From positions 1-64,000 of the forward strand of contig CAMVLW010000004.1 in NCBI GenBank assembly GCA_947168445.1: a stretch of 64,000 bases of DNA, given 5' to 3'. Both the position numbers and the translations under genes were made by a program. The stretch's first letter is position 1. Each line of letters begins with the position of its first letter. Origin of the DNA: an uncultured Clostridia bacterium. Lineage in GTDB: Bacteria > Bacillota > Clostridia > Oscillospirales > Acutalibacteraceae. Below are positions 22,861 to 32,200 of this stretch, piece by piece. The notes under the pieces were generated by a model that saw nothing but the letters and a program-made list of their open reading frames with translations, was not told the origin of the DNA and did not search any database.

Positions 22861-25167
22861 ATGAGGCTGAAAAAAATCCTTGCCGTTATTTGCAGCGCGG
22901 CGGTTCTGATGTGTGCAACAACCGCTGTTTTGCCTGTCTCTGCCGCAGAAGGAGCGTCGTCTGTCAGTGCTGCGGGCGAAGGGCTTACCTATTCGGTTCT
23001 GGCTGACGGCACCGCAAAAATAACGCGCTACTACAAAAAAGATATTGAAAGCTACACAGCGCCCGAAACGATTGCAGGACGCGTTGTCACCGCTGTGGGT
23101 CAATATGCGTTCAGCGAATGTACGCGGCTAAAAAGCGTGACGCTGCCCGACAGCGTAAAAATCATTGACGCCGAAGCCTTTGAATATACTCCGTTCTATG
23201 AAAACAGCGCTAATTATGTTGGCGGTGCGCTTTATGCCGGCAATCATCTTATCAAGGTAAAAACCTATGTTGAGGGTACCCTGACTGTGCGTGAGGGAAC
23301 AACCTCTATCGCAGAGGAAGCCCTGCTCAGGTGCAAAAAGCTGACCGGTGTTTCGCTGCCGGATTCTCTGAAGGCAATTGACCGCCGTGCTTTTTCGGGA
23401 TGTACAAATATCACCGCATTTGATATCCCCTCTGCTGTTGATTACATCGGTGAGGCTGCTTTTTATGATTGTACCTCTATTACATCTATCGCGCTTCCCG
23501 AAGCGATAACAGAAATCGCTTTTTCGATGTTTAACGGGTGCACTTCTCTGGAAGAAATCAATTATTCTTCGCAGCTGAAAAGCATCGAAGCTTACGCGTT
23601 TATGAAAACAGCAATAAAATCGACAATCATTCCCGAAGGCATGACAACTGTTCCTATGTGTGCTTTCTCCGGATGCAAGTCGCTGGAAACCGTCGATATT
23701 CCGGACTCTGTTAAGGAAATAGGCGAAAGGGCTTTCGAATCCTGCCCCGCGCTGCAAGAGATAGTGATGCCGGACAGCGTTGAAAAAATCAAATATTCCG
23801 CTTTTCAATTTTGCTCAGCTTTAAAGTCAGTTACTTTTTCAAAGAATTTAAAGCAAATTGATTATAAGGCCTTTAACAGCAGCGGAATTGAAGAAGCGAT
23901 TTTACCTGACAGCGTAACGCTGATCGGTTGGAACGCTTTTTCCGGTTGTTCGAACCTGAAAAACGTTCGTCTGCCCGACGGCTGCACCGAAATTTCCGGT
24001 ACCGGAGTTTTTGCGAATGACAACGCTTTAAAAAACATTGATTTTATGCGCGGCGTTAAAGTCATAAACTATGAAATGTTCACCGGATGCCGTAGCCTCG
24101 ATTACCTCACCATTCCCGAGGGCACAGAGGTCATTCAAGAAGCAGCGTTTTCTAATTGCGACAAGCTGAGAACCGTCATGATACCGGAGGGTGTGAAAGA
24201 ACTCGCCGACAGAGCGTTTTGCAACTATCATATGGAAGCTATATTTGTACCGCGCAGCGTCACCTCAATTGGAGTAAACTCTATTTACGGAGGTTCCGGA
24301 TGCACGGTGTACGGTTATTCTGATTCTTATGTACAGCGCTATGCGGAGGAAAACGGCTGTAAATTTGTTGCGATCGACGCTGTTACCCCCGAAGAGCTGC
24401 AAAAACAGGTTGAGGAATTTCGTGCGGAGGCAGAAGAAGTTGACAATTACTTCAACCCGGAAAACGATGAAACCGCACCGCATCCCCGCTATACGCAAGC
24501 CACCAAAAACGCTTCCGCCGCGCTGATCGACAGCTTGGCAGGCAAAACCTATCAAACGATATTTGAGCTCGCCGTTGACCGCGCAAAGCTTCATTTTCTG
24601 ATTGATTACTCAATGGTTGACAAATCCGAGCTGGCAAAGATAATTCGGATCTGGAACGCCGAAACCAACGACGACAATTACTACGACGAAGATACATGGA
24701 AGGAGCTTAAGAATTATCGCTCGTGTCTCCAAGCCGCATACGACGAAACCACCACCGAAGAAGAAATAATTCACAATGACTTTATCGGAGGAATCAATAA
24801 GCTCAACAAATGGTGTGCCTACACCAAGGTTTACGGAGATTTGGATCACAACGGTAAATTGACCATCAGCGATGTAACGGTATTGCAGCGCGCGCTCGCC
24901 GAAAACGGCACTCCGCTCCACATCCCGCAAATTGCCGCACTGAACGCCGGAAACGGAACGCCCTCTAAGATAAGCATTAAAGACGCAACCGCCATGCAGC
25001 GAGTTTTGGCGGAATACGATGACAATACGGTTCCTGCCTTTGAAAAAGAGCTTGCCCTCGCCGAAAATGCGAGAGTTTTGCCGACCCAAATCTACGTGCC
25101 GAAGCACGAAAGGATTTATCAGGAGGACATGGTGTTTCTTCGTTTTCTCGGCGCATATTATGGCTGA
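22861..25167 (+). CDS. Secreted BspA-type leucine-rich repeat protein with dockerin domain
   Basis: Signal peptide; repeated LPDSVKxIxxxAFxxCxxL units; GDLDHNGKLTISDVTVLQRALAE dockerin-type repeat and a degenerate second repeat. Confidence 0.88.
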   Translation: MRLKKILAVICSAAVLMCATTAVLPVSAAEGASSVSAAGEGLTYSVLADGTAKITRYYKKDIESYTAPETIAGRVVTAVGQYAFSECTRLKSVTLPDSVKIIDAEAFEYTPFYENSANYVGGALYAGNHLIKVKTYVEGTLTVREGTTSIAEEALLRCKKLTGVSLPDSLKAIDRRAFSGCTNITAFDIPSAVDYIGEAAFYDCTSITSIALPEAITEIAFSMFNGCTSLEEINYSSQLKSIEAYAFMKTAIKSTIIPEGMTTVPMCAFSGCKSLETVDIPDSVKEIGERAFESCPALQEIVMPDSVEKIKYSAFQFCSALKSVTFSKNLKQIDYKAFNSSGIEEAILPDSVTLIGWNAFSGCSNLKNVRLPDGCTEISGTGVFANDNALKNIDFMRGVKVINYEMFTGCRSLDYLTIPEGTEVIQEAAFSNCDKLRTVMIPEGVKELADRAFCNYHMEAIFVPRSVTSIGVNSIYGGSGCTVYGYSDSYVQRYAEENGCKFVAIDAVTPEELQKQVEEFRAEAEEVDNYFNPENDETAPHPRYTQATKNASAALIDSLAGKTYQTIFELAVDRAKLHFLIDYSMVDKSELAKIIRIWNAETNDDNYYDEDTWKELKNYRSCLQAAYDETTTEEEIIHNDFIGGINKLNKWCAYTKVYGDLDHNGKLTISDVTVLQRALAENGTPLHIPQIAALNAGNGTPSKISIKDATAMQRVLAEYDDNTVPAFEKELALAENARVLPTQIYVPKHERIYQEDMVFLRFLGAYYG

Positions 25168-25939: not shown

Positions 25940-26800
25940 TCAATCCGATTTCTCCGAAGGCGCAGTGGATTCAGCGTCACGCTGACAGACGACAAAATAT
26001 CTGCCCCAGCTTTCGGAATCGTAGGGGGCGCAGGTGAACATGGTGAACAAATCCCTGCCCTTGTCAATATAGATATGCTGTGATTCATTGGGACGGACAA
26101 CGTCGGTGGCAACCACCCGATAGGTCAGGGTTTCCCAAAAGTTTTTCACATACACCTTGTCGCCGGGGCTGAGATACTGAATGTTGTCAAAGAAAACCCT
26201 GCCGATATAGCCGGTGTGACCCGCCACGGAGCAGTTGGTGTCCGTGCCGCCGAGAGGCAGAGAGGTGTAGGTCATGTGCGCGCAGCCGTAACTCATGTTC
26301 GCGTCGCTCGCGCCGAGATAAATCGGCAGTTCCATGTCGATTGACGGCGCGGAAACATAGCCGTAAATTCCGTCGAACACGCCGTAGTTCTCAAGGTTGA
26401 GCACGGGAAAGTCGCGGCTTTCTCCCTCAACAAATTTGCTTCTTTGGTGCTCCTTTAAATCCTCGTTATAGGCAATGCTGTCGCGGCGCAGACGGTCTAA
26501 GTCCGCCTGAAAGAGTACGCGGGTGTTGCTTGTGCGCGCGCCGCTTTCGTCAATCGGATAACCCTCGGAATCAATCTGCTTTTTTTCGAGCGCGGCGGCA
26601 AAGGTTTTTTCGGTCACGCCGTTCTCAACAGGCGTGGTTTCGTCCGCGGGAATGATGTTATTGAGCACGCGGTCAAAGGTTTCCGCCTGACCGTGGGCAA
26701 CCTGCTTGCCGTACCAGTTGGAAACGGGCGGAAACAACAGAAATCCCAAGCCTGTCACCAGTAAAATTATCGCAATGATAAAGACAACCTTTTTCCACAT
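25940..26800 (-). CDS. Sortase (class C-like, pilus locus)
   Basis: N-terminal TM; SVAGHTGYIGRVFFDNI; MFTCAPYDSESWGRYFVVCQR. Confidence 0.85.
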   Translation of the reverse strand: MWKKVVFIIAIILLVTGLGFLLFPPVSNWYGKQVAHGQAETFDRVLNNIIPADETTPVENGVTEKTFAAALEKKQIDSEGYPIDESGARTSNTRVLFQADLDRLRRDSIAYNEDLKEHQRSKFVEGESRDFPVLNLENYGVFDGIYGYVSAPSIDMELPIYLGASDANMSYGCAHMTYTSLPLGGTDTNCSVAGHTGYIGRVFFDNIQYLSPGDKVYVKNFWETLTYRVVATDVVRPNESQHIYIDKGRDLFTMFTCAPYDSESWGRYFVVCQRDAESTAPSEKSD

Positions 26801-26801
26801 A

Positions 26802-27692
26802 TCAGCCGTCCTCCTCGCGTTTCTTGTTCTTTCTTCTGATATGGCGCACGACTAAAAAGACAATCAGCCCAACCGCCGCAACAAAGGCAAAAATTGCAAG
26901 ACCCGCATACCAGTAATTAATGCGGTAGCCGAGCAGGAAAACGCTTCCTTCCTCGGTGCTGACGATTTTTTTGACGGTTTCAATGCTGTCCACGTCGTTC
27001 GGCACGCGGGTGCCGCGCACCAAAAGACGGTGGGTGTTAATCGAATAAGGCGTGCAAGTGAGCAGCGTGACATAATCCTTGCCGTCCTCAACATACAAAT
27101 CCTCTGTTTGGTCGGGCAAAACGGTTTTGATTTGGTCAACCTGATAAGTGAGCAGCTCGTCGAGCACGTGAATGAGGAACTTGTCGCCCTTTTTTAAATC
27201 GGGCAGATAGTCAAAAAAGGTGCGCGTCGGAAACGCCGAATGTGCCGAGATAACGCTGTGGGTGTTTTTGCCGCCGACAGGAAAGGACGTGTTTTCCAAA
27301 TGACCCGCGCCCTTTTCGAGCACTTCCTTAGAGGTGCCGTGGTAAATGGGCAGGAACACGTCGATTTTCGGAATTTCGATATAGCCGATCAAGCCGTCCT
27401 CGTTGACGTTGAAGGTCTCGCGGTAATAATCCTCGATTTTCTCATAGGTCGCTTCGTCAAACGGGTCGGTCAGCAGCACGGTGGAAATCAGCTTGCGGTT
27501 GTAGTCCTCCGCTTCGTTAAAGAGAGCGTTGCGCTCCTTTTTGTCCATATTTTCAATTTTTATCAGCTCGTCCTGCGCGTGCTGACGGTCGGCAATGTTG
27601 TTGACCACCGAACTGATCAGCGGGTAGGACATCACGCCCACGCCGATTAAAAAAATCAGCGCAATGGCGATAATGGGAAGGGATTTTTTCAT
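26802..27692 (-). CDS. Class C sortase
   Basis: IPKIDVFLPIYHGTSKEVLEKGAGHLENTSFPVGG; VISAHSAFP; VTLLTCTPYSINTHRLLVRGTR; C-terminal TM. Confidence 0.92.
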   Translation of the reverse strand: MKKSLPIIAIALIFLIGVGVMSYPLISSVVNNIADRQHAQDELIKIENMDKKERNALFNEAEDYNRKLISTVLLTDPFDEATYEKIEDYYRETFNVNEDGLIGYIEIPKIDVFLPIYHGTSKEVLEKGAGHLENTSFPVGGKNTHSVISAHSAFPTRTFFDYLPDLKKGDKFLIHVLDELLTYQVDQIKTVLPDQTEDLYVEDGKDYVTLLTCTPYSINTHRLLVRGTRVPNDVDSIETVKKIVSTEEGSVFLLGYRINYWYAGLAIFAFVAAVGLIVFLVVRHIRRKNKKREEDG

Positions 27693-27722
27693 GTGGTTAA
27701 GTTCCTTGTTTTGAGAAATAAA

Positions 27723-27781
27723 GTAGTAGGGGCGAGCATTGCTCGCCCGTGACAGGCAGCCAATGACCGCCCCTACTATTT
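27723..27781. repeat. Palindromic GTAGGGGCG-type repeat
   Basis: AGTAGGGGCG...CGCCCCTACT inverted ends. Confidence 0.75.
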
Positions 27782-27796
27782 TACCGAAATCTTCGG

Positions 27797-27820
27797 GGAC
27801 GTGAGAACACGTCCCCGAAA
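27797..27820 (-). terminator. Strong hairpin downstream of the major pilin gene
   Basis: TTCGGGGACGTG-AGAA-CACGTCCCCGAA. Confidence 0.65.
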
Positions 27821-27847
27821 GTTTGTTTATTCAGTTATAAAACCAAA

Positions 27848-29239
27848 TTATTTCGCGGATCTCTTCTTCAGAACGATAACGAGGAGAACGCCCGCAGCGG
27901 CTACCAGAGCGCCGCCGATGATGGTGAAGGCAAGGGTGCCAGCGCCGCCGGTGTTGGGAAGCTTGGGCTTGGTATCGGTAATGGTAACACCGTGGTGGAT
28001 ACCATCTGTGATATTCTGACCGTCTTTTACAATCTTAACCTCGAATACGTTGTTGTTAACGGTGTAGCCTCTGGGAGCTTCGATTTCCTTTACATAATAG
28101 GTGCCCTCGGCAAACTTGTGGGTGAAAGCAGCAATACCGTCGCTGTTGGTAGTAGCTGCTTCAATCAGGGTTGTGCAAGCCTGCTCCTTATAAATACCAA
28201 TCTTTGCGTCTTTGAGCTTGATGTTGGTATCGTCAGCGTCAACCTTGGTTACGGATACTTTGTAGGTATATACGTTAACGGTGTCGCCCTTTTCTTCGTT
28301 GGTGTTGCCGGATTTGTTGGTGTACTTCAAGCCATCGGTGTTGGGGATGGGAGAACCGATTTTGGTAGCGGTTTCAGCCAGCTTGGTGGTGAAGATAACC
28401 TCAACATAATTGCCCTCTGCATAGAAAGCGTTGTCGTCCAGAGTTGTTTGGGGAATGGAGATACCGAAATCATAGGTAACGCCGTCAAACTTGGATGTGT
28501 CGGCACCAACCTTGCCGTAGCCGTTGATAGGGGTCTTGGTTGTGCCGCTTACGAGAGAAACAGAGGTGATTTTAACATCAGCCAAGCTGAGGTTTTCGGT
28601 GTCCATATCATCATAGATGATGAAGCTGGAGAGCTTGTTTTCGGTGGTACCGGTAACGTCTGCGGTCAGCTTGTACTTGATGGTGTCGTTCTGGTCAACA
28701 GACAGCTCAGTAACCTGCTCATCGGAGGAATTCAACAGATACTTGTGAACGGACGGAACGCCCTTCTCGGTAATCTTGCCGGTAACGTCAACGGTGTAGG
28801 ATTCGGTTTTGTTGGGCAGGGGAACGATGGAATCCTGAGTGATTTCCTTGTTGTTGAGCGCACGACCGGTGCACTTTACATAATACATACCTGCGGGAAG
28901 ATTGAAGGTATGAGTATTCTCGGTTGCAGTGAAAGTAAAGGAATCAACTGCATCGCCAATCTGAGCGTTGGTAGCAGCAGCAGCCGTCAGAACATCAGCG
29001 GTACTCTCGTCGCTCTGGTTGATTGCGGTTTGGATGGCGTCGTCTTGGGTGCGTTCAAAATGACCGGTGGTTTCATCAAAGTCCGCAAGCTTATATACGG
29101 AATAGGTATAGTCGGGCTTATAGCACTTAATGGTAAGGTCATACGTGGTTGGTTCTGCAGCGGAAGCCGCAAACGGAATTGCAAGCGCGAGCATCAAAAC
29201 TGCGAGCGCAATTGCAAGAACTCTTTTGGTTGTTTTCAT
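27848..29239 (-). CDS. SpaH/EbpB-type major pilin with LPNTG sorting signal
   Basis: Signal peptide; isopeptide/E-box YYVKEIEAPRGYT; LPNTGGAGTLAFTIIGGALVAAAGVLLVIVLKKRSAK. Confidence 0.92.
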   Translation of the reverse strand: MKTTKRVLAIALAVLMLALAIPFAASAAEPTTYDLTIKCYKPDYTYSVYKLADFDETTGHFERTQDDAIQTAINQSDESTADVLTAAAATNAQIGDAVDSFTFTATENTHTFNLPAGMYYVKCTGRALNNKEITQDSIVPLPNKTESYTVDVTGKITEKGVPSVHKYLLNSSDEQVTELSVDQNDTIKYKLTADVTGTTENKLSSFIIYDDMDTENLSLADVKITSVSLVSGTTKTPINGYGKVGADTSKFDGVTYDFGISIPQTTLDDNAFYAEGNYVEVIFTTKLAETATKIGSPIPNTDGLKYTNKSGNTNEEKGDTVNVYTYKVSVTKVDADDTNIKLKDAKIGIYKEQACTTLIEAATTNSDGIAAFTHKFAEGTYYVKEIEAPRGYTVNNNVFEVKIVKDGQNITDGIHHGVTITDTKPKLPNTGGAGTLAFTIIGGALVAAAGVLLVIVLKKRSAK

Positions 29240-29258: not shown

Positions 29259-32200
29259 TTATTTCTTGACTCTGTAGCGAGCCTTTTTGTTTCTCTTTGT
29301 ATAAAGCAGATATGCCGCGCCAAACAGGGTTGCGAGCGTAATGGCATAAACGCCTGCCATCTGCCAGCCGAACATGCCGCCGAAGCCGGAGTTGGGGCTG
29401 AGGATATGACCGTTTACATAGTCAAACTGCGGCGCGTAGGAACCGCTCAGGGGCAGTGTGAAGTAGTAGACAGTGTTGTTTTTGAAGTAGCCTGTGGTGG
29501 GATCGGTTTCCGCAATGGCATACCACTGGTAGGTTCTCTGCGACTCGTCCGCGTAGTACTTGTTGTCCGCGTACAGGGGCAGGTCGGTAAAGTGAACCGC
29601 CGTTTTGTTCTTTTTGCTGCCGTCGGAATTGGTAATCTCCATCGACTTGGTTGTGGCAGTCTTGAACGGCGATTTTCCGTCCAGCGATTCGCCGCCGACG
29701 CTTACCTTATAGATGGCAAACTCAACGCCGGAAACGTCTCTTTTGGCGGTGTCGCTCTTGATGACATACACTTCGCCCAGCTTAACGGTGTTGGTAAACT
29801 CAGCGGAATCAACGGTGTTGTTATTCAGCGAATAGGTCACGGTGGGCGTAAGGGTAATGCCGCTCTTGGTTACGCTCTTGGTTACGTTCACAACCACCTT
29901 GTATTCCTTGTCGTCATAGGACTTCACATCGGAATCAGCCTCAGCGGGAGCCTTCTCTCTGATGTAGAAGGTGTTGGTTGCCGCGTCGGTGTAGGTGCGG
30001 GTGGAGAAGGTCACTTTGCCGGTGGCGGTGCAGGGCTTGGTTTCGATTACCTGCTTTGAACTGTCGAGCAGCTCAAATTCAAACGCGCCGTCGGTGAGGT
30101 CGGCGTTTTGCAGCGTTTTGTGCGCGGTGAGGGTCACGGTGACCTGACTGGGCTTGAGCTTTTTGTTGGTAACGGTGATTGCGTTGTCGCTTGTGCGCAC
30201 GGTGATACCGCTGTCGCCGCCGGTCACGCTATCAAAGCTGTGCTCACCGTCGATGGCGTCCTTGTCCTCTTCAAATTTAACCTTGGCGCCCTGCGGAATA
30301 CCCGTAAAAGTCAGGGTTCTGCCGTTTTTAAGCTTGCCGTTATCCGCAAGCTTACCGTCGCTTGTCAGCGCGGTGGCGGTGTTGGTGTCGCTGGTGGTGT
30401 AAGCGAGGTTGTAGGTTTTCCAGCCGTCGCCCAAATCCACATAAACAGTGCCGCCGAACTCGGTGTTATCGGTTTCGCCGTTGGCAAGACCTGTCACTTC
30501 TTTGGTGATGGTGACGGGAGCAACTTTCGGGGTATTGACGAAGTCCGCCTGCAATTCCGCAAACTCAAAGGTATCGGGGTTTGTGGTGCTGTTAATCAGC
30601 TGCTTCACGCCGGTATAGGAAGTGATGCCGCTGCTCGTACCCTGATTACCCACTTTGTCGGTGTATGTCCAGTTTGTGTCATAAATCAGATAGCTGTTTG
30701 ACGCCTTGCTTTGCGTCACGTTAATCTTATCACCCGTGGTGAAGAAGGTATTAAAGTGTGCCGCTCCGCCCGACTTCAAATCGAAATAGGAATTTGAGGT
30801 CGTTTGAGTGCTGCCGCTTTCGGTGAGATAGGACAGATTGGAAACGGAATCTGTGCCGTTTGTACCTGCCGTGGGGGTAAAACGGAAGGAATCAAGCGCC
30901 TTAACAGCGTCTGTCAAGCCGCTGTTAATATCGGCTGTGTTAATGGTTTCGGTAACAGTGACCGCATTGCCAAGAGGAACCATAGTAAACGACATTTTAC
31001 AGTTACTCTCAAGCATACCGCGCTCCATATAGAAGATGCTCATTTTGTATGACTTGGTGTAATCAAAAGTAAATGTCTTTTTCTGTTCGTTCTTGCCGTA
31101 GACGTCGTTAGCAATCGCCTGTTTGTCCTTGAAGTTAATGGTACCCTTTGCCTGCTTATGGTTACCGCCGAGGTCGAGAACCAGTTGTGAGTTAGTGGTT
31201 CCGGTTTCGGTAATATAAACCCAAAGATCGTCGTCACCCGAATACTCAAAGGTGATGGGGTTGCCTGCGTTGTCAACGCCTCCCGCGGGAACGCGGAAGT
31301 TCATTTCTGTTTTAATGCCGAAGCCGTAGTCGAGGTTTTCGCTTGAACCGGAGCTTGACAGGCCCGCGTCAGCGGGTTTTTCCGCCCAATTCTTCACATC
31401 GGTGTTATCTCTCCAATAAGCGCCGAACGACAAATCCTCTACATCTTTTGTCTTGTTGCTGCCTCCGTCGTTAAAGACGCATTTGGTTGCGCCCACGGGA
31501 ATCGCGATTCTGACATTGGTGCCGCCGCCGGTGTAGGTGGACATTTTTGTGCCCGGCCAATCCGCTCCGACAGTTTGATTGCTGTTGTTGAAGAAATAGC
31601 AGTAGGTATTTGCCCAACCCTTGCTGTCAAAATATACATAGCGTGTTCCTGTGGTTTGGCTGCTGCGGTTGTTAAACGGGAAAATACCGTAGCCTGACTT
31701 ATACTTTTGACCTGTTGATGAATCGGTATCGTTCGGATTCATAAAGTACTGAATACCGTCGAGAACGCCGTAGGTTGTGCCCGAGCCGTAGTTTACTGCG
31801 GTGGGCGTTGTTCCGTTCCAGTTGAAATAGACGTTGTCCTTAGCGTTTGTTGAGTCAAACTCATACTTGGTAACGCCGTTTTCAACCGAAGTTCTGAACG
31901 GGAACTTACTGTTGATGACCGTGGCATAGCTGCCAAGCTGGTCGGGGTCAAAGTAAGGCGCCTTAAGCGTACCGGTCGCCATCAGATTGCCGTTTGCGTC
32001 GAGCGTATTCTGCATCAAACCCTGATAGCTCTGATACATATTGCTCAGACCGTTTGAGTTGTTTGCTGCATAGTTGAAGCGCGTCACGTTATAGCTGTTG
32101 GTCGCGTCCTTAAAGCTCTTTGCTCCGTCGCTGTCATAGCCTGCCGCTGCACCCTTGTGGTGACCGGAAGTGTTAAACGCGCCGTTTGTATTACAAAAGT

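Follow-up and report, generated by a model that had tools for sequence, protein, structure and literature searches.

The 64,000-nucleotide window analyzed here (the whole stretch of DNA under study) carries a pilus operon on its minus strand, in which the gene for a large adhesin comes first and is followed by those for a major pilin and two sortases (Table 1). The adhesin frame begins at TTG, preceded by the strong ribosome-binding site AAAAGGAGG. Its C-terminal sorting signal, LSPNSG, differs from the LPNTG of the pilin and would thus suit a subunit that is handled separately, e.g., by the second sortase; the adhesins of relatives carry NPxTAG, APNTAG, or MPNSSG instead. The sortase-pilus setting proposed in the original prediction was borne out, with a SpaH/EbpB-type pilin and a class C sortase scoring above their cut-offs. 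The same gene order recurs in most relatives with enough contig, where the pilin gene lies at most 100 bp after the adhesin gene and class C sortases come next.

Table 1. Features of the adhesin and its operon, with coordinates in the window; loop A is the FPFN-to-YGFG loop of the adhesin head.
Feature	Coordinates	Strand	Evidence
Pilus-associated adhesin, 1116 aa	29259..32609	-	Signal peptide, conserved head, DUF5979/CnaB-like stalk, C-terminal sorting signal
FPFNN motif, upstream edge of loop A	31668..31682	-	Alignment; FFPID equivalent in distant fibro-slime proteins
Inserted segment in head loop A, residues 324-419: CBM26 plus WAEKPADAG linker	31353..31640	-	Relatives join at 323/420; alignment; loop lengths
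CBM26 starch-binding module, residues 325-391	31437..31637	-	PF16738, 41.6 bits (cut-off 28.1); 48.2 bits in second search
Expected sugar-stacking aromatics Y336, Y338, W351 (residues 336-351)	31557..31604	-	Conserved in CBM26s of the genome and relatives and in solved Sas6/Amy13K chains
DYGFG motif, downstream edge of loop A	31317..31331	-	Alignment; equivalent in distant fibro-slime proteins
Fibro-slime domain core (TIGR02148, residues 452-542) with GDDDLWVYI and LDLGG	30984..31256	-	Profile match
Cell-wall sorting signal LSPNSGFGG, non-canonical	29376..29402	-	Sequence and relatives
Major pilin, SpaH/EbpB family, signal LPNTG	27848..29239	-	NF033902, 119.5 bits (cut-off 95); SpaA domain, Gram_pos_anchor
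Sortase 1, class C (pilin-polymerizing type)	26802..27692	-	NF033745, 277 bits (cut-off 160)
Second sortase, class C-like	25940..26800	-	NF033745, 147.4 bits (below cut-off 160); Pfam Sortase, 78.2 bits

A starch-binding CBM26-like module had been read from the letters at 31436-31690 on the minus strand, and the PF16738 profile finds it over the whole of its length (profile positions 1-69 of 70; E = 1.4e-10), with a score so far above the cut-off that the match is well beyond chance. The place of the module stood, and its span was refined to a longer insert that includes a linker. The module keeps W332, Y336, Y338, W351, the PG pair, M356, and T387, and has a Lys at position 386, where most CBM26s have Gln. 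Y336, Y338, and W351 align with the Sas6, Amy13K, and Amy16 chains; among 54 CBM26s, position 338 is Tyr in 44 and position 351 is Trp in 41. A phmmer search of the PDB with the single module gave a weak match (E = 0.08), and a profile of the adhesin CBM26s matched the solved Amy16 of Ruminococcus bromii at 1e-34, followed by Amy10 and Amy4, by Amy13K of Eubacterium rectale, and by Sas6 of R. bromii. Judged by this profile, the adhesin modules are closest to the CBM26s of R. bromii amylases. In the CBM26-like domain Sas20d1 of R. bromii, a Tyr/Trp platform binds maltotriose, with W72A abolishing and Y60A weakening the interaction (PMC9112005); Y338 and W351 would be the counterparts of these platform residues. 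AlphaFold2 models built from one or two sequences were too poor for use (pLDDT 34 for the head plus one relative and 45 for the module alone).

Relatives of the adhesin were sought in 198 genomes, mostly of the same genus and order, and were present in 105, nearly all of the same genus; plasmid and phage collections held no relative of the adhesin head. Sixty loci were taken from these relatives, their adhesin frames were extracted, and head loops were measured in 58 adhesins. Loop A spans 7-23 aa in 46 of them and 99-230 aa in the other 12, with no intermediates. The empty form reads FPFNNASNNNKGTKTNANENLNYGFG in one relative (L064), and the filled form of the window adhesin reads FPFNNRSSQTTG-CBM26-SSENLDYGFG. 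In five genomes of the same genus (G012, G017, G044, G102, and G114), residues 324-419 have no counterpart and the flanks adjoin at residues 323/420 with zero bases between them. The exactly joined flanks and the two-peaked distribution of loop lengths therefore show that the CBM26 segment is an insertion.

The original prediction had placed this module between the FPFNN element and the GDDDLWVYI/LDLGG core of a fibro-slime domain, as an insertion within that fold. The order is confirmed, with FPFNN at residues 310-314, the module at 325-391, DYGFG at 427-431, GDDDLWVYI at 458-466, and LDLGG at 478-482, and so is the fibro-slime assignment (TIGR02148, 47.3 bits against a cut-off of 45, E = 2.2e-12, model positions 20-87 of 90). 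Throughout the adhesin family, TIGR02148 matches from model position 18-21 on, whether the insert is present or not, and loop A consequently lies just before the matched part. Fibro-slime proteins of Fibrobacter succinogenes and Clostridia share with the adhesin the series FFPID...HNYHF...GDDDxWV...DLGG. Two distant members of the same class illustrate it, one with FFPIDDQLWGNEGRTHNYHFTTEI...GDDDLWVFI in the same element order (L114) and the other with FFPLD...HNYYFGMRYDIKF...GDDDLWVLL (L117). Since the distant proteins share this order, FFPID/FPFN and HNYHF/YGFG would be conserved neighbors in the fold that are separated by a loop of variable length; in the distant members examined this loop lacks a CBM26, whereas the window adhesin has a 96-residue module there. 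The notion of nesting thus holds for the extended fold, given the exact flanks and the CBM26-less loop of the distant proteins, but not for the TIGR02148 boundaries: as far as alignments tell, the CBM26 is inside the extended fibro-slime fold, in the FPFN-YGFG loop, and outside the part that the model matches. The fibro-slime head is probably PA14-like. Its DDD motif recalls PA14 adhesins, and by analogy this part of the protein may have a calcium-dependent glycan site of its own.

Loop A is one of three loops of the head that accept modules, together with loop C (YGFG to GDDD) and loop B (LDLGG to FYMERG). Each of the three holds a CBM26 in one adhesin or another; tandem pairs occur as well, as do CBM26s at either terminus of the relatives. 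The window adhesin and L050 have one CBM26 in loop A, L051 a decayed one, L053-L055 divergent ones with a weak Pfam match or none, L056-L059 a tandem pair, and L061 and L069 other, non-CBM26 modules. L083 has a CBM26 in loop C (Pfam, 55.1 bits), where L096 has a different module, and loop B is enlarged in more than 20 adhesins, with a CBM26 in L089 (Pfam, 37.6 bits). Elsewhere, many relatives have an N-terminal CBM26, L078 has one in the following domain, and L063 and L066 have one close to the C terminus. The prediction that a glucan-binding pilus adhesin would be an unusual device must therefore be toned down, since roughly half of the family members examined within the genus have a CBM26 at some position.

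A quick tree of the heads with inserts removed requires four changes in loop A occupancy, at least three of them supported by well-supported branches, and rejects a single clade of loop-A-occupied heads. In a CBM26 tree of 75 columns and weak support, the modules of loop A, loop B, and the downstream domain cluster, with that of L089 (loop B) falling among those of loop A. L061 carries one and the same kind of Pfam-less, non-CBM26 module in loops A and B (residues 435-525 and 601-690), and the 86% identity between the two copies suggests that the module was recently copied between the loops. We give about an even chance to the proposal that the head evolved as a plug-in scaffold, in which CBM26s and several undescribed modules have been inserted, duplicated, and moved among three surface loops, and by which one genus redirects its pili to different glycans, with starch as the first target. 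Given that relatives of the adhesin have either this module or others, in loop A and in adjacent loops, its pili may act as swappable grappling hooks that catch starch granules.

The host genome is an assembly of 118 contigs that is 85% complete. Profile counts give 19 GH13, 40 dockerin, 4 cohesin, and 17 CBM26 matches, several of them on shared frames (C23, C32, C13, and C27). By these counts, the genome is amylosome-like, with an R. bromii-type make-up (compare PMC5814915), and the host is a Ruminococcus-type, starch-digesting gut bacterium. Pfam profiles find no dockerin, cohesin, or enzyme in the adhesin, which would thus work beside the amylosome.

The CBM26 profile, the intact Y336/Y338/W351, the loop insertion, the conserved operon, and the starch-type genome together make a starch-targeted pilus adhesin the most likely identity of the protein. 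We consider it probable that this adhesin is a subunit of a sortase-assembled pilus in a starch degrader of the Ruminococcus type and that its loop A CBM26 holds the cell to starch granules. The fibro-slime head would serve as a holder whose loops accept binding modules, here one CBM26 in loop A. Class C sortases would use the adhesin's own sorting signal to attach it to a polymerized shaft of SpaH/EbpB-type pilin, so that the head would be displayed at the end of the pilus or along it. The CBM26 would stack alpha-glucan chains on Y336, Y338, and W351 and keep the cell on the granules, which the separate amylosome would degrade. We infer that the module binds starch, that the adhesin sits at the pilus tip, and that labor is split between it and the amylosome.

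The module might be a CBM26 by descent that no longer serves dietary starch and instead binds another alpha-glucan (bacterial or host glycogen or exopolysaccharide) or acts as a structural spacer. The presence of other modules in the same loop (L061 and L069) would fit this idea, as would the fate of the platform in some relatives: WPG and the second Tyr are gone from the L051 module (G073), platform residues are also lost from that of L053, and the first tandem copies of L056, L058, and, in part, L059 lack WPG, the Trp, or the second Tyr next to an intact second copy. Functional upkeep is therefore not universal among copies. However, the platform is intact in the module of the window, at least one copy with both Y338 and W351 is present in seven of the nine adhesins with a CBM26 in loop A, and the genome is built for starch, all of which makes a role away from starch unlikely.

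The protein could also be a single cell-wall-anchored adhesin that stands beside a pilin operon and is no part of the pilus, with its CBM26 holding starch at short range. Its non-canonical signal would be compatible with this arrangement, and in one clade (L072, L073, L076, L084, and L088) the adhesins mostly have LPxTG-like ends and are followed by one sortase, with no separate major pilin. Nevertheless, the close spacing of adhesin, pilin, and class C sortase genes in most relatives speaks for a pilus subunit, and a sorting signal of their own is normal for tip pilins of sortase pili (PMC11389406). We regard the anchored, non-pilus alternative as doubtful. It is highly improbable that the segment belongs to the regular fibro-slime fold and merely looks like a CBM26: TIGR02148 matches only downstream of loop A and cannot by itself show nesting, but relatives without the insert refute the idea, 46 of 58 adhesins lacking it in an otherwise intact head. 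In addition, the flanks join exactly in the five genomes named above, and modules of the same kind occur in tandem and in other loops.

Each part of the proposed starch-targeted pilus adhesin is already known, the interchangeable loops being the more novel element. The CBM26s of the R. bromii amylosome (Amy16, Amy10, Amy4, and Sas6) and of E. rectale Amy13K belong to the same family by profile, share the aromatic platform, and come from starch-degrading relatives; they are borne by amylases or by other dockerin-bearing or secreted starch proteins, whereas the module described here is seated in a pilus-adhesin loop, and the adhesin has neither enzyme nor dockerin. R. bromii Sca5 and RBR_09240 likewise present starch-binding modules on a sortase-anchored surface protein (PMC5814915, PMC9112005), but the former is an X25-bearing scaffoldin and the latter a single anchored protein, and for neither has a pilus operon or an insertion into a fibro-slime head been described. 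Operons for SpaH/EbpB-type sortase pili that have tip adhesins similarly combine a large adhesin with a major pilin and class C sortases. The well-studied tip adhesins of such pili, however, target host proteins, mucus, or partner bacteria, with no starch-binding CBM found in the literature searched. Within the open-access literature, no publication was found that describes a CBM26 as part of a pilus adhesin or together with a fibro-slime domain.

The first capture of resistant-starch granules by R. bromii and its relatives is usually explained by the amylosome alone. If the proposed function is correct, a starch-binding pilus adhesin would be a second attachment device of longer range. Module swaps among defined loops of one head would also offer a natural system for learning how adhesins change target, and the head might serve as a scaffold for the display of binding domains.

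Further inserts were noted in the heads of relatives. Modules akin to the Pfam-less one of L061 also occur in L069, L077, and L099. Loop B inserts of about 100-250 aa with WG..(V/I)xaW patterns were seen in L001, L072, L080, L081, L086-L088, L094, L100, and L106; the two that were scanned (L001 and L094) had no Pfam match. From their patterns, these inserts are possibly undescribed carbohydrate-binding modules.

Elsewhere in the host genome, a dockerin match (G000:C3:1753-1914, minus strand) lies in an open frame of 8381 aa, which may be a giant dockerin protein or an artifact of frame counting. Within the operon, the gap between the pilin and sortase 1 genes (27693-27847, minus strand) folds into a pair of strong hairpins (z = -9.4), of which the first, a GC-rich stem with at least 12 pairs, possibly limits transcription of the sortases relative to that of the pilin. 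The second (27719-27783) includes GGGCGAGCATTGCTCGCCC, which belongs to a small palindromic repeat; some dozen partial copies of this repeat occur in other parts of the genome. About 770 bp past the end of the pilus operon, the plus strand encodes a BspA-type leucine-rich repeat protein (22861-25167).
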